64,000 nt of DNA from a bacterium 1XD21-70 (GTDB taxonomy: Bacteria; Bacillota; Clostridia; Lachnospirales; Lachnospiraceae): positions 1 through 64,000 of the forward strand of contig RAYB01000010.1 in NCBI GenBank assembly GCA_003669055.1, read 5' to 3'. Under the pieces are notes generated by a model that searched no databases, had not been told where the DNA came from, and saw nothing but the letters and a program-made list of their open reading frames with translations. Below are positions 30,353-38,908 of the stretch, piece after piece. Every line of letters begins with the position of its first letter. Position 1 is the stretch's first letter. A program made the translations under genes and the position numbers.

Positions 30353-31294
30353 ATGGACGAAGGCTATTCGTACTTGTGGATCATTTTCGGAGCAATGGCT
30401 TGCCTGGGGGCGGCGGGGCTGGCCTTCCGGTATTGGAGGGCCCGGCAGGAGAACGTGACGGAAGAGGACATCAAGACGATGGTGAATGAGGGGCATGAGC
30501 AGGGCGTCCTAGAGACCAGGGAAGCGAAGATGATCAGCAACATTTTCGAGTTGGACGAGAAGGAGGCCGGCGATGTCATGACCCACCGGAAGCATATCGT
30601 GGCGCTTCCGGGTGAGATGCTGCTGCAAGAGGCGGCGAGGTTTGTGCTGAAGGAAGGGAACAATACCCGTTACCCGGTCTACGGGGAGGACCTGGATGAC
30701 ATCATTGGCACCATACATATGCGGGATGTGCTGGTTCACGCGGAGGATCCTAAGGAGGCGGGGATGGAACTTGCAAAGGTGCCCGGCGTGCTGCGGGAGG
30801 CGCAGTTCATCCCGGAGACGCGGAACCTGGATTCGCTGTTTAAGGAGATGCAGTCTAAGAAGATCCATATGGAGATCGTGATAGACGAATACGGGCAGAC
30901 GGCCGGCTTGGTTACCATGGAGGATATTCTGGAGGAGATCGTCGGCAATATTATGGACGAGTATGATGTGGAGGAGAAATTCATTGTCCGGCAGGAGGAC
31001 GGGGATCTGCTGATAAACGGCATGACCCCGCTGCGGGAGGCGAAGGAGGCCTTGGGGATCGAATTGCCGGAGGATGACCTGGACAATTATGATACAATAA
31101 ACGGGCTTTTGATCTCCCGCCTGGACCGGATTCCCCAGGAGGAGGAGAAGCCGGAGGTGGTTTATCAGGGAGTGCGCTTCTCCGTGATGAAGGTGGAGAA
31201 TAAGATGATCCACACGGTACGTGCCAGGAAGCTGCCGCAGGAGGACGGGCAGGCCGGGGAGGGGAACTTGGAACAAGAACATAGGGAAATGTGA
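30353..31294 (+). CDS. CBS-pair / CorC-HlyC domain membrane protein (short form)
   Basis: A 313-residue protein related to the CNNM/CorC (hemolysin-like) family. There is one N-terminal hydrophobic segment (about residues 7-24), then the linker EAKMISNIFELDEKEAGDVMT, shortened here to ISNIFELDEKEA and VMTHRK. A tandem CBS pair follows (about 65-195) with TRYPVYGEDLDDIIG and IVIDEYGQTAGLVT. A CorC_HlyC transporter-associated domain fills the C-terminus (about 205-290). It lacks the four-helix DUF21 domain of full CNNM proteins. It may bind nucleotides and affect ion transport; no substrate is shown. A weak terminator follows. Confidence 0.82.
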   Translation: MDEGYSYLWIIFGAMACLGAAGLAFRYWRARQENVTEEDIKTMVNEGHEQGVLETREAKMISNIFELDEKEAGDVMTHRKHIVALPGEMLLQEAARFVLKEGNNTRYPVYGEDLDDIIGTIHMRDVLVHAEDPKEAGMELAKVPGVLREAQFIPETRNLDSLFKEMQSKKIHMEIVIDEYGQTAGLVTMEDILEEIVGNIMDEYDVEEKFIVRQEDGDLLINGMTPLREAKEALGIELPEDDLDNYDTINGLLISRLDRIPQEEEKPEVVYQGVRFSVMKVENKMIHTVRARKLPQEDGQAGEGNLEQEHREM

Positions 31295-31300
31295 AAAAGG

Positions 31301-31327
31301 ACGCCTGGCCAGGCGTTTCTTTTTCTC
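31301..31327 (+). terminator. short terminator between the CBS gene and the MATE gene
   Basis: ACGCCT and AGGCGT pair around a GGCC loop (31301-31316), followed by a T-rich stretch TTCTTTTTCTC. The stem is short, so readthrough into the MATE-jet genes is possible. Confidence 0.6.
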
Positions 31328-31347
31328 TATTCAATGAGGTGGTCAGG

Positions 31348-32733
31348 ATGATGAAGGCGATTGCAGATACAAAAGAGATGCTGCGGGATCAGGTTTTCTT
31401 GAAGAAAGCAGTGATGATTGCGCTGCCGGTGGCGCTGCAGGGCATGCTGAATACGATTGTAAACCTGGTGGACACGATGATGATCGGGCAGCTGGGGGAG
31501 ACAACGATTGCGGCAGTAGGGCTGGCAAACAAGGTGTTTTTCGTGTTTTCCCTGCTGGTGTTCGGGGTGGCCAGCGGCTCGGGGGTGCTGGCGGCGCAGT
31601 ACTGGGGGAACCGGGATGAGAAAAACATCCGGAAGGTGACAGGGCTGGCGCTTTTGATTGCCCTGGCGGGATCCCTGTTTTTTGTGGTTCCCAGTGTGCT
31701 GTGCCCGTCCGCGGTCATGCGGATTTTTACCAACAGCGAGGGGGCAATCCAGGTTGGCGCATTATACCTGGCGGTGGCAGCCCTGTCTTACCCGTTTACG
31801 GCCCTCACCAATATCTACGTGGCTATGCTGCGTGCCGTGGGGCGGGTGAAGGCACCCGTGATGATCAGCTGCATGACGATTTTAATCAACATTACGTTGA
31901 ATTATACCTTGATATTCGGTCATTTCGGGGCGCCCAGGCTGGGCGCCCAGGGTGCGGCGGCGGCCACGCTGACGGCGAGGATTGTGGAGACAGGTGCGAT
32001 CTTAGGGGTGGTATACCTGACGCATTCGCCGGTTGCCGGGAGGCTTTCGGAACTGTTTGGCTATACCGGGGCTTTTGTCCGCCAGTTTGTGGGGACGGCC
32101 AGCCCTGTGATTGCCAATGAGTTTATCTGGGGGCTGGGTACGACGATGTATTCCCTGGCATACGGGCGGATGGGGGACAATGCGGTGGCCTCCATCACGA
32201 TAGCCACCACGATCCAGGATATTGTGGTGGTGCTGTTCCAGGGTCTGAGTGCGGCGACGGCGGTGATCCTGGGCAATGAGATGGGCGCAGGGAAGCTAAA
32301 GCAGGCGGAGAAATATGCGAAGAATTTCTTTATCCTGCAATTTTTGGTCACGCTGGCGGCCATGGGCCTTTGCTATGGGATCCGGGAAAATATCATCGGC
32401 ATGTACAGCATCTCGCCGGAGGTGGCGGCGGATGTGAACCGCTGCCTGATTGTCTTTATCTTGTATATGCCGTTTAAAATGTTTAATTTTATCAATATTG
32501 TAGGCGTGCTGCGCAGCGGCGGCGACACGAAGATGTGCCTGCTCGTCGATACCAGCGGGGTATGGCTGATCGGGGTGCCGATGGCATTTTTAGGCGGGCT
32601 GTACCTGAAACAGACGATTGCGGTGGTCTATGCGATGGTGATGTCGGAGGAGGTCTATAAGGCAGTGGTCGGGTATCTCCGGTACCGGCAGAAGAAGTGG
32701 CTGCGGAACCTGGCGGTGGAATTGGGCAGGTAG
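31348..32733 (+). CDS. MATE family multidrug efflux transporter
   Basis: A 461-residue membrane protein with about 12 hydrophobic segments. The early region GMLNTIVNLVDTMMIGQLG is characteristic of the MATE/NorM fold, and a related sequence recurs in the second half. It exports organic cations or other compounds using a Na+ or H+ gradient; substrates are unknown. GAGGTGG precedes ATG 31348, with ATG 31351 as an alternative. jetA begins only 19 bp downstream with no terminator, so it is likely transcribed with the jet genes. Confidence 0.92.
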   Translation: MMKAIADTKEMLRDQVFLKKAVMIALPVALQGMLNTIVNLVDTMMIGQLGETTIAAVGLANKVFFVFSLLVFGVASGSGVLAAQYWGNRDEKNIRKVTGLALLIALAGSLFFVVPSVLCPSAVMRIFTNSEGAIQVGALYLAVAALSYPFTALTNIYVAMLRAVGRVKAPVMISCMTILINITLNYTLIFGHFGAPRLGAQGAAAATLTARIVETGAILGVVYLTHSPVAGRLSELFGYTGAFVRQFVGTASPVIANEFIWGLGTTMYSLAYGRMGDNAVASITIATTIQDIVVVLFQGLSAATAVILGNEMGAGKLKQAEKYAKNFFILQFLVTLAAMGLCYGIRENIIGMYSISPEVAADVNRCLIVFILYMPFKMFNFINIVGVLRSGGDTKMCLLVDTSGVWLIGVPMAFLGGLYLKQTIAVVYAMVMSEEVYKAVVGYLRYRQKKWLRNLAVELGR

Positions 32734-32752: not shown

Positions 32753-34153
32753 ATGGCGAATCATTTTCCGGAAATACCGGATCTGTTCTGGGGGTTATTC
32801 CGGTCAGGGAACCGGATGGTTTATATCGAGGCGCTGCTGCGGATCAATGAGGAATACCAGTACAGCAATTATTACCTGAGCCGGGAGATCTGTGTGCAGG
32901 CGCTGACCGATTATTTTGCCAAGCAGAAGGTGACGCTGGAGCAGGAGGAGACGGAGGACGACTTTGACCTGCTAGAGCCGCTCTCTGCGCGTATCTTGAA
33001 CTGGCTTTTGCGGACAGGATGGCTGAAAAAGGTCGAGGATTACAACGCCATGGCAGTGAACATCGTGATTCCGGACTATACGGCGGTGTTTGTGGAAGCC
33101 TTCGCCCACCTGGCGGGGGAGGATGAGGATGAGACACAGGTGTATATCCAGAACATCTACGGGATCCTGTTTGCGTTTAAAAATGACCCGCGGTCCAATA
33201 TTTCCCTGCTGAAAACGGCGTTAGTCAACACACGGCGCCTCAACAAGTCACTGCAGGATATGCTGCATAACATGGATAAGTTTTTCGGCAGCCTTTTGGA
33301 GCAGAGGAACTATGGGGATCTGCTGCAGGAGCACCTGGAGGGATATGTGCAGGAGATTGTGCAAAAGAAGTACCATATCCTAAAGACGTCGGACAATTTT
33401 TATCTGTATAAGGCAGACATTAAGCGGTGGCTTTTGGAGATGAGGCAGGATCCTTCCTGGCTGGAAGAAGTCTGCCGGCGCAACCGGCAGCTTCGCGGGG
33501 CGGAGGTGCGGGGGGAAACGATTATAAGCCAGCTGGAGTTGATTGAGCGGGGGTTTGACGACATTGAGAACCGCATTATCAACATGGACCGGGAGCATAC
33601 GCGCTATATCCGGGCGACAGTTACCCGCATGAATTATCTGCTCAATAAGGAAGACAACATGAAGGGCCTGGTAATCCAGCTTCTCAACCATCTCTCGGAG
33701 GCAGAGGGTAAGAATGGGCAGGAACAGGAACTGGAACGGGTGGGGAAATTGATGAACCTGTCATTGATGACAGTGGTTTCGGACAAATCCCTCTATAAAA
33801 AACGCCGCACAAAGCAGAATTTCCTGGAGAGCCTGGAGGCGGAGGAAGAGACGAGGGAACTTTCCGGAAAGGAAGTGCTGCGCTTAAACCGGGTACATAG
33901 CCGTTACAGCAAAAAACAGGTGGAATCCTTTATCTTAGAGCGGATGGAGGACGGCCGCCTGGAGGTGGGGGCGGATACCGTTTCCACGGAGGAGGACTTT
34001 GAACGCCTGGTGCTGGCATATGACAGTGCAGCGAGGAAGGATTGCCCGTTCTTGGTGCGGGAGCAGGAGGCTGGGATGGTGGATAACGGGCTCTACCGCT
34101 ATCCGCGGCTGGTATTTGAGGCGAGGGAGCAGGCCGGGAAAGGGGAGCAGTGA
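32753..34153 (+). CDS. jetA: Wadjet JetA / MksF-type kleisin subunit
   Basis: A 466-residue protein recognised as a JetA (DUF5716) family member. JetA/MksF is the kleisin that closes the SMC ring. The start FPEIPDLFWGLF, the central helices around DFDLLEPLSARILNWLL, and the overall helical, charged composition fit. The C-terminal part (from about 340) is probably the SMC-contacting winged-helix region. Its stop is followed immediately by the jetB ATG. Wadjet complexes act by loop-extruding foreign circular DNA until the JetD nuclease cuts it; no jetD is present here, so the same role cannot be assumed. Confidence 0.85.
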   Translation: MANHFPEIPDLFWGLFRSGNRMVYIEALLRINEEYQYSNYYLSREICVQALTDYFAKQKVTLEQEETEDDFDLLEPLSARILNWLLRTGWLKKVEDYNAMAVNIVIPDYTAVFVEAFAHLAGEDEDETQVYIQNIYGILFAFKNDPRSNISLLKTALVNTRRLNKSLQDMLHNMDKFFGSLLEQRNYGDLLQEHLEGYVQEIVQKKYHILKTSDNFYLYKADIKRWLLEMRQDPSWLEEVCRRNRQLRGAEVRGETIISQLELIERGFDDIENRIINMDREHTRYIRATVTRMNYLLNKEDNMKGLVIQLLNHLSEAEGKNGQEQELERVGKLMNLSLMTVVSDKSLYKKRRTKQNFLESLEAEEETRELSGKEVLRLNRVHSRYSKKQVESFILERMEDGRLEVGADTVSTEEDFERLVLAYDSAARKDCPFLVREQEAGMVDNGLYRYPRLVFEAREQAGKGEQ

Positions 34154-34768
34154 ATGATTGGTTATTATGAGGAATTGTCCCCGGAGGAGCAGAGCAGGGT
34201 GACGGAGTCGGTTTTGCAGCTGACGCGGCAGACCTTTGTGCTGGAGCGGCGGTATGACCGCAAGGCGAAGCGCTACCAGCTGAACCGGGAGTATTACCAG
34301 TGCAGCAAGCATCTGGAATTTATCCGGGCATATTTTGCGGTCATGGAGATCGAGGTGGTGGAGAACAGCCAGATCGGGGTGATTTACCTTAGGGGGGAGC
34401 AGGTGGTAGGCGAGAAGCTTTCCAAGCTGGCGACCTTTTATATCCTGGCGCTGAAGCTGATCTACGACGAGCAGATGTCCGCGGCCTCCACGTCGGTGAA
34501 TGCAGTGGCTTCCTTGGGGGAGATCCATGAGAAGCTGGGGACGTACCGCCTGCTTAAGAAGCAGCCGTCGGTGACGGAGATCCGGCGGACGCTGGCGCTG
34601 TTGAAGCGCTATCAGCTGATCGAGCCGCTGGATGTGCTGGAGGAGATGGACGGGCAGAGCCGCCTGGTGATCTACCCGACGGTCAATGTGGTGCTGATGG
34701 GGGATGATGTGCGGGCGCTGGTTGAGAGTTACGGTGAGGAGGATGAGGGAGATGGAGAAGAGGTTTGA
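34154..34768 (+). CDS. jetB: Wadjet JetB / MksE-type KITE subunit
   Basis: A 204-residue protein of the JetB (DUF4194) family. These are KITE-type winged-helix subunits bridging kleisin and SMC. The region RYDRKAKRYQLNREYY then LEFIRAYFAVM and the later LLKRYQLIEPLD are typical. Its start abuts jetA and its last 17 bases overlap jetC, so translation of the three is tightly coupled. It ends with a short acidic tail. Identification rests on both sequence pattern and gene order. Confidence 0.85.
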   Translation: MIGYYEELSPEEQSRVTESVLQLTRQTFVLERRYDRKAKRYQLNREYYQCSKHLEFIRAYFAVMEIEVVENSQIGVIYLRGEQVVGEKLSKLATFYILALKLIYDEQMSAASTSVNAVASLGEIHEKLGTYRLLKKQPSVTEIRRTLALLKRYQLIEPLDVLEEMDGQSRLVIYPTVNVVLMGDDVRALVESYGEEDEGDGEEV

Positions 34769-37700
34769 GGCATTGTCGAGGATCTGCCTGAACAACTGGC
34801 ATTATATCCGGCATAAGACCTTGTCTTTCCATGAGGGGATCAATTTTTTCACCGGGCATTCGGGCAGCGGGAAGTCTACGGTCATTGATGCCATGCAGAT
34901 CGTGTTCTATGCCAATACGGACGGCCGCGGGTTTTTCAATAAGGCAGCGGCGGATGATTCTGACCGCAGCCTGATTGAATATCTGCGGGGAATGGTCAAT
35001 ATCGGGGAGGACAACCGTTTCTCCTATCTGCGGAACCAGAATTTTTCCAGCACGGTTGTGCTGGAGATGCGGCGGACGGACACAGGGGAGTGCCAGTGCA
35101 TAGGGGTGGTATTTGATGTGGAGACAGCCACCAATGAAATCTCGCGGATGTTTTTCTGGCACCAGGGACCGCTGCCGGAGCATAAGTACCGGGTGGCAGG
35201 AGGCCAGGAGGCCGGGAGGGATTCCTGCCCGGCAGGCCGGGCGATGTCAGTGGAGGAGGCCAAACGGTGGCTGTTAGGGAATTTCCCCAAGGAGGGGTGC
35301 TATTTTGGTTCCCACAACGAGCGGTTCCGCAGGCAGCTTTATGATGTCTGGCTGGGGGGATTGGATGAAAAGCGGTTCCCGCTGCTCTTTAAGCGGGCGA
35401 TCCCTTTCCGGATGAATATCCGCCTGGAGGATTTTGTGAAGGAATATATCTGCATGGAGCAGGATATCCATATCGAGGACATGCAGCAGAGCGTCATGGA
35501 ATATGGGCGTATGCAGAGGAAGATTGAGGATACCTGCCGGGAGATTGAACTGCTAAAGGAAATCTGCGGCCAGTATGGGCGGGTGGCCGAAAAGCAGCAG
35601 GAGCGGGATGCCTGCGGGTATTTTGGGGCGCGCCTGGATATCCTCCAGGGGCGTCTGGAGGTGTCGGAGTGCCAGGAAAAGATCCATGTCCTGCAAGAGA
35701 ATGCGCACAGTGCGGCCGGGGAGGCCAAACGGCTGCAGGCGGAGCTGGAGGAGATGGAGGCAAAGGGCGAGGAACTTCTCCGGCAGATCTCGATGAGCGG
35801 CTATGAACAGATGAAGGAACAGCTTTTATCGCTGAATGAACTGGTGGAACGCTTAGGCAGCAGCAGCGCCCGCTGGGAGCAGACGGCAGGGCGGCTGAAA
35901 GCCTGGGAGGAGGAGGACTGCGTCTCGAACCGGACTTTGTGGGATATCGAGGCATTTGCCAAGGGAACCATCGGGGAGGAAGGGCTTTTAAGACTGAAAA
36001 AGGATTTGGCAGAGTTAAAAAAAGACGCGGCGAGGCAGCAGCAGGGCGCTTTGGGGCAGCTGCGGGAACTGAAAAAAAGCCTGGAACGCGCCCGGGAGGA
36101 GCGCAGCCAGTTAAAGGCAGGCAACAAGGCATATCCCAAGGAACTGGAACAGGCGCGCACATTCTTGCAGAATGCCCTCTGCCGGGAGACGGGGAAAAGT
36201 GTGCAGGTATCGGTCTTGGCAGACCTTTTGGACATCCGTGACGAGGAGTGGCGGAATGCCGTGGAAGGTTATTTAGGCTACAATAAGCTGGCGCTTTTGG
36301 TGGAGCCGCGGTATGCGGCGGCAGCGCTGCGGATCTATGAGGGAATGGACCGGGCACGGTTTTGCCGGGTCACGGTGCTGGACACGGAGCGGGTGGCGGC
36401 AGAAGAGCATCCGCGGGAGCCGGGGGCGCTGGCGGAGGAGGTGGAGGCCAGGAGCAGCTTTGCCCAGGCTTATGTGGACTTTTTGCTGGGGAGGGTGGCC
36501 AAGTGTGAGGATGTGGAGCAGCTGCGCCGCCATAAGGTAGGCGTCACGAAGGACTGTGTATCCTACCGCAGTTACCGGATCCAGCATATCAGCCCTGCAC
36601 TTTATACGGCATCGGCCTACATCGGCAAAAACAGCGTGCGGCAGAGAATCCGGCTGCTGGAGAAGTCCATGGAGGAATGGGAAGCGGCGATGGCGCCGCA
36701 GCAGGAACTGGTGAGGGAGGCAGAGCGGATCCAGGGGCTGGAGGCACTGGGGCAGGAACTGTCCGTGTATTTGGACTGGAAGCGGGACAAAGATAGATAC
36801 CCGCAGAAGCAGGCGGAGCAGGGACGGCTGCGGGCAAAACTGGAAGAACTCTCTTCGGGGGATGTAAAGCAGTGGGAAAAGGAACGCAGGGAACTTTTGG
36901 AACTGTGCGGCCAGCGCAAGGAGGCGCTGCGCCAACGGCAGCGCAGTGCAGACGAATTGGAACGGGAAAAGCAGAAAGAGCAGGAGAACCTCATCCGGCT
37001 GAATGAGGAACTGGTGGCAAAGGAACGGGCTTTGGCGGTGCAGCCCGAACTGGAGGAGGAACTGAACCGTCTGCTGGAGGGACGGCATCTGCCGCGCTAC
37101 GGGCTTTTGCGCAGGGAATACCTGGACAGGCAGGAACAGGCAGAGGGGCAGCGGCAGCAGGAGATGAACCGGCTGGTGGAACTGAGGGTTTCTTATCTGC
37201 GCCTATACCAGAACCGGAACTTTTCGCCGACTAAGGAGGACAACCAGGAGTACCAGGATCTTTTGGATCATTTAAACGATGAGCGCCTGGAGGAATTTAG
37301 GGTAAGGGCAGCCGAACAGGCGAGGACGGCGGCGGAACATTTTAAAGACGATTTTATGTACAAGATCCGCAGTGCCATCAAGGAAGCCATCCAGCAGAAG
37401 GATGAGTTAAACCGCATTATCAGCCGCCTGGATTTCGGAAAAGACAGGTATCAGTTTTACATTGGGAAGAATAAGGGGCCGGACGGGCAGTACTATGATA
37501 TGTTTATGGACGAGGCGCTGGACATTAACCCCTCAGAGTTAAATCCCGGGATGGACCATCAGCTGAACCTGTTTACAGTTGAGCATGAAAACCATTATGG
37601 GGCGATGATGAATGACCTCATCCGTGTATTTATTCCACCGGAAAATGCCACGGCGGAGGAATTGGAGGAGTCGCGGCGGAATATGGATAAGTATGCGGAC

Positions 37701-38147
37701 TACCGCACCTACCTCTCTTTCGATATGCAGCAGCTGATTCAAAATGAGGAAGGGGTGCTGCAGATCCGGCTCAGCCGTATGCTTAAGAAGAATTCCGGGG
37801 GAGAGGGGCAGAACCCGCTTTATGTGGCGCTGCTGGCCAGCTTTGCGCGGATGTATAAGCTGGACGCAACCCCGGGGTTTTTGCGGAATCCGACGCTGCG
37901 GCTGGTGGTGTTTGACGAGGCATTCTCGAAGATGGATGCCGAGAAGGTGGCCAGCTGCATAAAACTGATCCGGGGGCTGGGGTTCCAGGCGCTGATTAGC
38001 GCAACGAATGACAAGATACAGAATTATCTGGAGACGGTAGACAAGGTTTTTGTGTTTGCCAATCCCAACAAGAAAGCGATCTCTGTGCAGGAGTTTGAAA
38101 AGAAGGAGTTCAAAAGCCTGCAGGAGGGCATGGAGGAGGAGCGATGA
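34752..38147 (+). CDS. jetC: Wadjet JetC / MksB-type SMC-like ATPase
   Basis: A 1,131-residue SMC-type ATPase. Walker A is GHSGSGKST at 35-43, the ABC signature SGGEG begins at S1015, and Walker B ends with D1055-E1056 in VVFDEAFSKMD. Long charged coiled-coil arms (about 240-480 and 600-900) flank a middle hinge-like segment. All ATPase residues seem intact. ATG 34752 has AGGAGG 9 bases upstream inside jetB; ATG 34743 is possible but poorly spaced. Its stop codon overlaps the aroD start. The jetD nuclease normally following jetC is missing. Confidence 0.9.
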   Translation: MEKRFEALSRICLNNWHYIRHKTLSFHEGINFFTGHSGSGKSTVIDAMQIVFYANTDGRGFFNKAAADDSDRSLIEYLRGMVNIGEDNRFSYLRNQNFSSTVVLEMRRTDTGECQCIGVVFDVETATNEISRMFFWHQGPLPEHKYRVAGGQEAGRDSCPAGRAMSVEEAKRWLLGNFPKEGCYFGSHNERFRRQLYDVWLGGLDEKRFPLLFKRAIPFRMNIRLEDFVKEYICMEQDIHIEDMQQSVMEYGRMQRKIEDTCREIELLKEICGQYGRVAEKQQERDACGYFGARLDILQGRLEVSECQEKIHVLQENAHSAAGEAKRLQAELEEMEAKGEELLRQISMSGYEQMKEQLLSLNELVERLGSSSARWEQTAGRLKAWEEEDCVSNRTLWDIEAFAKGTIGEEGLLRLKKDLAELKKDAARQQQGALGQLRELKKSLERAREERSQLKAGNKAYPKELEQARTFLQNALCRETGKSVQVSVLADLLDIRDEEWRNAVEGYLGYNKLALLVEPRYAAAALRIYEGMDRARFCRVTVLDTERVAAEEHPREPGALAEEVEARSSFAQAYVDFLLGRVAKCEDVEQLRRHKVGVTKDCVSYRSYRIQHISPALYTASAYIGKNSVRQRIRLLEKSMEEWEAAMAPQQELVREAERIQGLEALGQELSVYLDWKRDKDRYPQKQAEQGRLRAKLEELSSGDVKQWEKERRELLELCGQRKEALRQRQRSADELEREKQKEQENLIRLNEELVAKERALAVQPELEEELNRLLEGRHLPRYGLLRREYLDRQEQAEGQRQQEMNRLVELRVSYLRLYQNRNFSPTKEDNQEYQDLLDHLNDERLEEFRVRAAEQARTAAEHFKDDFMYKIRSAIKEAIQQKDELNRIISRLDFGKDRYQFYIGKNKGPDGQYYDMFMDEALDINPSELNPGMDHQLNLFTVEHENHYGAMMNDLIRVFIPPENATAEELEESRRNMDKYADYRTYLSFDMQQLIQNEEGVLQIRLSRMLKKNSGGEGQNPLYVALLASFARMYKLDATPGFLRNPTLRLVVFDEAFSKMDAEKVASCIKLIRGLGFQALISATNDKIQNYLETVDKVFVFANPNKKAISVQEFEKKEFKSLQEGMEEER

Positions 38148-38908
38148 AACCAGTAGTTGTGAGGAATGTGGCGATCGGGCAGGGGAGGCCAAAGGTCTGT
38201 GTCCCGATTGTTGCTGCAGCAAAGGAGGAAATCCTGCGTGCGGCAGAAAATATGGAGGAAATCCCGGCAGATATCGTGGAATGGCGTGCTGACTGGTATG
38301 AGGATGCCCTGCAGACGGAGAAAGTGGTGCAGCTGGCAGGCTTTTTGCGGGAAAAGCTGGGGGAGAAGCCGCTTCTTTTTACCTTCCGGACAGCCAGGGA
38401 GGGCGGGGAAAAGGCTCTGCCTGCAGAGGAATATGAGGCGCTGAATACTGCCGTGGTGCAAAGCGGTTATGTGGACTTGCTGGATGTGGAACTGCTGGCC
38501 GGGGACGAGGCAGTGACCCGGATGCTTGATGAAGCACACCGCAGGCAGGTACGGGTCATCTGCTCAAACCATGATTTCTTTAAGACGCCGCCAAAGGAGG
38601 AGATGCTGGGGCGCCTGCGCAAAATGCAGCAGCTGGGCGCGGATATCTTAAAACTGGCGGTGATGCCGCAGTCAAAGAGGGATGTGCTGGCACTTTTGGA
38701 GGTGACGCTGGAGATGAGCGAGGAGGCGGTGGGATATCCGGTTGTCACGATGTCGATGGCCTCTTTGGGGATGGTCAGCAGGCTGGTAGGGGAAGCCTTT
38801 GGCTCAGCGATCTCCTATGGGGCAGTCGGGCAGCGGTCGGCGCCGGGGCAGCCGGGGGCAAGGGAACTGGCCGAAGTGCTGGATATGATCCACCGGAATT
38901 TGGAGTAG
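38144..38908 (+). CDS. aroD: type I 3-dehydroquinate dehydratase
   Basis: A 254-residue shikimate-pathway enzyme. The Schiff-base lysine is K170 in ILKLAVMPQ. Other active-site motifs are VEWRADWYE near residue 45, LLDVELLAGD near 108, and the C-terminal SYGAVGQRSAPGQ. The start ATG shares bases with the jetC TGA stop, and GGAGGAGCG precedes it inside jetC. No other aro gene is nearby, so its position after an SMC operon is curious. A strong terminator ends the unit. Confidence 0.95.
   Translation: MKPVVVRNVAIGQGRPKVCVPIVAAAKEEILRAAENMEEIPADIVEWRADWYEDALQTEKVVQLAGFLREKLGEKPLLFTFRTAREGGEKALPAEEYEALNTAVVQSGYVDLLDVELLAGDEAVTRMLDEAHRRQVRVICSNHDFFKTPPKEEMLGRLRKMQQLGADILKLAVMPQSKRDVLALLEVTLEMSEEAVGYPVVTMSMASLGMVSRLVGEAFGSAISYGAVGQRSAPGQPGARELAEVLDMIHRNLE

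Follow-up and report, generated by a model that had tools for sequence, protein, structure and literature searches.

Nuclease-free JetABC cores of the type I Wadjet family are under purifying selection in Lachnospiraceae bacterium 1XD21-70 and its relatives

The window analysed here is a stretch of 64,000 nucleotides from Lachnospiraceae bacterium 1XD21-70 (contig RAYB01000010.1), and the system in question is its jetA, jetB and jetC operon (Table 1). The initial annotation had described these genes as a kleisin, a KITE protein and an SMC-type ATPase of the Wadjet family, which was confirmed by matches to Pfam and to the type I models of PADLOC. All three reading frames are open and lie on the plus strand. 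JetA (DUF5716 kleisin), JetB (DUF4194 KITE) and JetC (SMC ATPase) are contiguous, as in type I Wadjet, but the operon lacks the JetD TOPRIM nuclease. A kleisin/KITE/SMC set without MksG/JetD is also the composition of an MksBEF/MukBEF-type condensin. The window JetB scored 22.2 bits against Pfam MksE (PF21980), under the cut-off of 27, and was not assigned to that family. A sequence search of a structure database matched JetC weakly and only to Rad50 heads, and returned no match for JetB and nothing useful for JetA.

The open reading frame (ORF) of jetC spans 34704–38147. Its start was assigned to the ATG 16 codons in, with an alternative ATG at 34743, and the gene begins within the 3′ end of jetB. 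The ATPase motifs are intact: Walker A (GHSGSGKST) at 51–59, the signature NSGGEGQ at 1030–1036 and the Walker B segment, DE included, at 1066–1074 in ORF numbering. The positions given for them earlier (Walker A 35–43, S1015, D1055–E1056) agree when counted from the ATG at 34752. JetD-less and JetD-bearing rows of the alignment were alike in these motifs. The reported absence of jetD between a MATE exporter gene and aroD also held. The MATE gene is separated from jetA by 19 bases, and the jetC stop and the aroD start share an ATGA, so that there is no space for a jetD remnant between them. aroD follows jetC in two relatives as well (L050, L051). The window locus is confirmed as an intact type I Wadjet JetABC core without an adjacent jetD.

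Table 1. Features of the JetABC locus in the window
Feature	Position	Strand	Evidence
jetA, kleisin-type subunit, 466 aa	32753..34153	+	Pfam PF18982 458 bits; PADLOC JetA1 PDLC00451 740 bits
jetB, KITE-type subunit, 204 aa	34154..34768	+	Pfam DUF4194 67.6 bits; PADLOC JetB1 PDLC00484 318 bits
jetC, SMC-type ATPase	34752..38147	+	Pfam SbcC_Walker_B, AAA_29, SMC_hinge; PADLOC JetC1 PDLC00505 1578 bits
ATGA overlap, jetC stop / aroD start	38144..38147	+	sequence
MATE-family exporter gene, upstream neighbour	31291..32733	+	Pfam MatE 172 bits
aroD, type I 3-dehydroquinase, downstream neighbour	38144..38908	+	Pfam DHquinase_I 248 bits

The assembly of the window genome comprises 4.31 Mb in 137 contigs and is 96.7% complete. 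The whole-genome search for JetD_C gave a single match (G000:C51:6861-7331), on a contig other than the window's. This jetD lies directly 3′ of its own jetA, jetB and jetC and completes a type I Wadjet on contig C51; there is therefore no jetD in the window. The earlier suggestion of a nuclease elsewhere was right as to the presence of a jetD, but this jetD is part of a second system of another subfamily. The C51 set matched the models JetA1 PDLC00448, JetB1 PDLC00478, JetC1 PDLC00516 and JetD1 PDLC00526, whereas the cognate type beside relatives of the window JetABC is PDLC00524, the best match of all five such JetDs scanned. No JetD of this cognate type was found by the JetD_C search of the 137 contigs. 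The window genome thus carries a complete second Wadjet of a different subfamily plus the nuclease-free core.

With the window JetC as query, a scan of named genomes yielded 119 confirmed relatives. The best 80 of the 119 were analysed; these are the nearest to the query and not an even sample. jetD was called with an iterated JetD profile up to 10 kb on either side of each locus. Among these best 80, full-length jetD lay within 1 kb of jetC, directly after it, at 21 loci. It lay 7 kb off at one locus (L088), and a 119-codon jetD stub followed jetC at another (L057). No jetD was found within the searched range at 50 of the 80 loci, and seven were undecidable because the contig stops less than 1.5 kb past jetC. 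Complete genomes of named isolates hold JetD-less sets (L077, L120). Within the window's genus, JetC with at least 58% identity to the window's occurs in 10 of 24 genomes, the window's included.

An even draw across the order covered 294 genomes and gave 50 JetA loci above the Pfam cut-off. JetD_C was present within 8 kb at 34 of these loci (one being a JetA match with four stops) and absent from 16, two of which reach a contig end. With those two excluded, 14 of 48 decidable loci lacked an adjacent jetD. The 13 other than the window's were rescanned with the JetD profile, and again no jetD was found alongside. Two of the 13 are in single-contig genomes (G235, G368). JetA scores among the 13 ranged over 201–480 bits, so the JetD-less state extends beyond the window's subfamily. 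One genome of the draw (G299) is apparently the same as one of the best-80 set (G061), with JetD in the same place.

Gene order varied at some loci. jetA lies apart from jetBC in L097, L100, L104 and L109. In L109 it is about 9 kb upstream, with ABC-type genes in between; in the other three it is absent from the fetched stretch, and an intact jetA occurs elsewhere in each genome. At L216:1583-11655, a JetD-less JetABC has an HsdR-like gene on one side and, on the other, a MYG1-exonuclease-family gene overlapping the jetC end.

The ratio of nonsynonymous to synonymous substitution rates (dN/dS) showed that JetABC without JetD is under purifying selection. In 13 JetD-less pairs, dN/dS was 0.033–0.107 for JetA (12 pairs, with the L060–L090 value from a 50-codon piece), 0.022–0.112 for JetB (13 pairs) and 0.045–0.103 for JetC (12 pairs; one saturated). 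In five JetD-bearing pairs it was 0.042–0.083, 0.018–0.102 and 0.056–0.134, respectively. The values were obtained by the Nei–Gojobori method on stop-to-stop frames (window JetA, JetB and JetC from their starts), which saturates at high dS, and dS was often about 1 or above in the JetD-less pairs. The flanking MATE, hlyC, alr and aroD genes gave 0.047–0.141, and mazF was lower. JetD evolves faster, at 0.13–0.19 in four of the five pairs (one saturated). JetC has at least 1119 codons at 49 of the 50 JetD-less loci and is split only in L107. An intact jetA is kept in four genomes (G071, G072, G074, G078) though detached from jetBC. Decay is unlikely because dN/dS of JetABC without JetD matches that with JetD, and the upkeep of JetABC without the nuclease likewise counts against it. 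Since many relatives lack the cutter yet keep an intact motor, this motor probably has a use that involves no cutting.

The JetC tree was built from 83 rows, namely 79 of the subfamily (52 without jetD, 23 with, 4 unlabelled at contig ends: L067, L093, L118, L127) and four of the outgroup. It was a quick LG+G4 search with support from the Shimodaira–Hasegawa-like approximate likelihood ratio test (SH-aLRT) only, and it carried a warning that two long branches, L082 and L113, join. Rows with split or cut JetC were excluded (L081, L085, L107, L110). Two labels were set by hand (L088 as JetD-bearing, the stub locus L057 as JetD-less), and L053, L062 and L082 were labelled JetD-less although their genomes have JetD elsewhere. 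The jetD label changes at least 16 times on this tree; if jetD was ancestral and never regained, about 18 operon losses occurred within the subfamily. The window's clade has seven rows (SH-aLRT 97). In six of them jetA lies directly 3′ of the same MATE gene, and in the seventh (L060) the MATE–jetA link spans two contigs of one genome, each with part of jetA. Of two larger JetD-less clades, one unites Lacrimispora, Hungatella hathewayi, C. symbiosum and others in 13 rows, and the other comprises 11 rows, two of them unlabelled, with Eisenbergiella and Hespellia among them.

JetD looks ancestral to the subfamily operon, because PDLC00524 follows jetC in relatives and the identities of JetD and JetC are correlated (Spearman rho 0.865, from non-independent pairs). 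The comparison of neighbourhoods for a jetD deleted at the window's own locus gave no such case, since none of the seven clade members has jetD; a different locus of this subfamily does show in-place loss clearly. There, jetD separates jetC from a metallophosphoesterase-family gene in L116, L089 and L111 (with one extra gene in the latter two). The same gene directly follows jetC in L095, L108 and L115, and the L095 overlap is an ATGA, as between jetC and aroD in the window. L095, without jetD, and L116, with it, are sisters on the tree. Judging from this gene order, jetD was plainly lost in place. JetD-less L055 also has four to six flanking families in common with JetD-bearing L052, L054, L056 and L066.

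In G022, a genome of the window's genus, MATE adjoins aroD with no JetABC between, so the set was either inserted in the window or cleanly lost in G022; the JetABC of G022 lies elsewhere, with the jetD stub (contig C18, locus L057). Upstream neighbours were compared pairwise, for synteny only. The names hlyC, mazF, alr, nnrDE and gntR for flanking genes are our own provisional labels rather than family-library matches. A greater site stability of JetD-less loci was unsupported: at least two flanking families were common to 15 of 21 JetD-less and 7 of 8 JetD-bearing pairs with at least 85% JetC identity. Between L052 and L056, JetD is 98% and JetC 87% identical, and a near-identical stretch begins right after jetC. 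This suggests that jetD was exchanged, together with its flank, separately from most of jetC.

A replacement for JetD was sought by clustering the ORFs in the 7 kb that follow jetC at the 80 loci, two of which have no DNA past jetC. In this range the JetD-less loci have no single replacement gene family in common. The largest non-JetD cluster held 17 ORFs of 238–962 codons from 16 loci, 15 JetD-less and one JetD-bearing (L068, L070, L071, L074, L077, L087 and ten more); these are raw counts with no test against chance. It was a chain of mixed ABC-type ATPases rather than one family, and was not counted as an effector. Its 946-codon member from L068, the sole one scanned, is UvrA, and others match the window's ABC transporter ATPase. 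Other clusters covered at most six loci each. A nuclease fused to JetA or JetC was rejected, the lengths being similar to those of JetD-bearing relatives.

Signs of adaptation were sought in the alignments. Columns at least 95% conserved with JetD and at most 80% without it numbered 8 in JetA, 4 in JetB and 15 in JetC. Loss of JetD-facing residues was rejected, as no such column was lost outright across all three large JetD-less clades. In equal-sized JetD-less subsamples, JetB had a mean of 44.8 conserved columns against 45 in the JetD-bearing set, and JetC 357 against 372. JetA had 83 against 150; this count includes the truncated rows L060, L109 and L125, to which the deficit is ascribed. 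The JetB IFDR motif, reported to contact JetD (PMC10586767), could not be placed in the window's subfamily.

According to PMC10586767, JetABC is thought to sense DNA shape and size by loop extrusion, and JetD cuts once extrusion is complete. We consider it somewhat probable that the window JetABC is an accessory, non-cutting DNA loop extruder, with a role like that ascribed to MksBEF of P. aeruginosa and to MukBEF. Its ancestor would have carried the JetD nuclease, the lineage would have lost it, and selection would retain the core for a task that needs no cutting. The window JetA, JetB and JetC would form a complex, and this ATP-driven motor would still load onto DNA and extrude without JetD. 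ScpB, part of Smc-ScpAB, was present in 15 of 15 genomes tested; JetABC would therefore be not the sole condensin but an accessory one beside Smc-ScpAB. Its substrate would be the cell's own chromosome rather than plasmids. Action on the cell's own DNA appears most likely, with silencing of circles second. The condensin or MksBEF-like reading is the best fit of the three that the initial annotation had offered, and we infer it rather than demonstrate it.

Several observations weigh against an accessory extruder acting on the chromosome. Its patchy distribution in the genus is odd for a chromosome-keeping part. MksBEFG of C. glutamicum, which has the nuclease, reportedly acts on plasmids and not on the chromosome (PMC7083940). 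At its N-terminus JetB differs little between JetD-bearing and JetD-less sets, so a JetD-binding surface may persist. The absence of a conserved column lost in all three large clades means that no adaptation to a new task is visible.

The patchy distribution resembles that of defence genes. With the similar conservation of the core with or without JetD and the lack of a single replacement family after jetC, it agrees with a defence that needs no nuclease. In such a defence the core would find small circular DNA by total extrusion and then silence, compact or mis-segregate it uncut, as Smc5/6 does with extrachromosomal DNA. We regard this as possible but rather unlikely. A shade more doubtful is the proposal that a type I Wadjet core was repeatedly freed of its nuclease within one family and retained to guard, without cutting, against circular DNA. 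Small circles would be recognised by total extrusion and then silenced or trapped, in a bacterial counterpart of Smc5/6 restriction.

It is improbable that the window JetABC partners a JetD encoded elsewhere, here that of the second Wadjet. The window genome does possess the C51 JetD, but it belongs to the other subfamily. A genome-wide search gave no JetD_C match in 28 of the 50 JetD-less genomes, many of which are drafts or metagenome-assembled genomes that can miss genes; five clade mates of the window (L050, L051, L058, L060, L090) are among the 28. In the sixth clade mate (L039, genome G023), the JetD of a second Wadjet is split over two frames beside another JetC (L045:5092-6346), which may be a broken nuclease or an assembly error. 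Only 8 of the 50 genomes have a type I-like JetD, and 4 of the 8 follow another JetC. The remaining 14 genomes have weaker JetD_C matches, some next to distant JetC-like ATPases.

In favour of a partner in trans, no JetC was found beside the type I-like JetD in four of the 50 genomes. In G061 it lies among metabolic genes, and in G048 two genes from an AAA ATPase gene. In G081 it comes immediately after a type I restriction (HsdR-like) gene (L176:111-4933); the 16 kb analysed there contain no JetABC, and the JetABC of that genome (L117) has no adjoining jetD. In G043 it lies 184 bases from the contig edge, which leaves its JetC neighbour undecided. The single-contig genome G368 (L215 and L227) is a fifth case, with a JetD-less JetABC at 0.37 Mb and a lone JetD at 2.78 Mb, 2.4 Mb apart. 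Because lone type I-like JetDs occur in few genomes, a borrowed nuclease is possible in a minority.

A decaying defence remnant, in which jetD went first and jetABC would follow, is very improbable: the stub in L057 shows that decay occurs and G022 has no JetABC between MATE and aroD, but the frames and ATPase motifs are intact, dN/dS is low (0.022–0.112, with dS often about 1 or above), JetC has 1119 codons or more at 49 of 50 JetD-less loci and entire clades are JetD-less.

JetD-less operons of the Wadjet group are mentioned in PMC10586767 and PMC7617805, and the phenomenon as such is therefore already known. A review passage states that MksBEF of P. aeruginosa was likely derived from Wadjet through loss of JetD (PMC10586767). 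MukBEF and several other members of the Wadjet group are without JetD, and Data S1 lists Wadjet operons with subunit assignments (PMC7617805). Our literature search found no description of a JetD-less JetABC in Lachnospiraceae, in sources available partly as excerpts, and the Data S1 table of PMC7617805 may already include these operons. What is new, as far as our searches tell, is the recurrence within one close subfamily, the evidence of selection, the loss of jetD in place and the coexistence with a complete Wadjet in one genome. Close relatives that have JetD can be set beside others that lack it; some of these lost jetD in place, and JetD-less sets occur in complete genomes of named isolates. 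This makes the role of JetABC without cutting directly testable. A JetABC match alone is no proof of plasmid defence.

Among known systems, the window operon is like type I Wadjet (JetABCD/MksBEFG) in that JetA, JetB and JetC match the type I models and relatives with the same JetABC have jetD beside jetC; it is unlike it in lacking JetD, the nuclease required for plasmid cleavage. With MksBEF of Pseudomonas aeruginosa it shares a kleisin/KITE/SMC set without a nuclease. This likeness is one of composition; by sequence, the genes of the window fit the type I Wadjet models, and MksE only below the cut-off. MukBEF is likewise an SMC complex of the Wadjet group without JetD (PMC7617805). MukBEF apparently replaced Smc-ScpAB (PMC10586767), whereas ScpB was present in all 15 genomes tested here.

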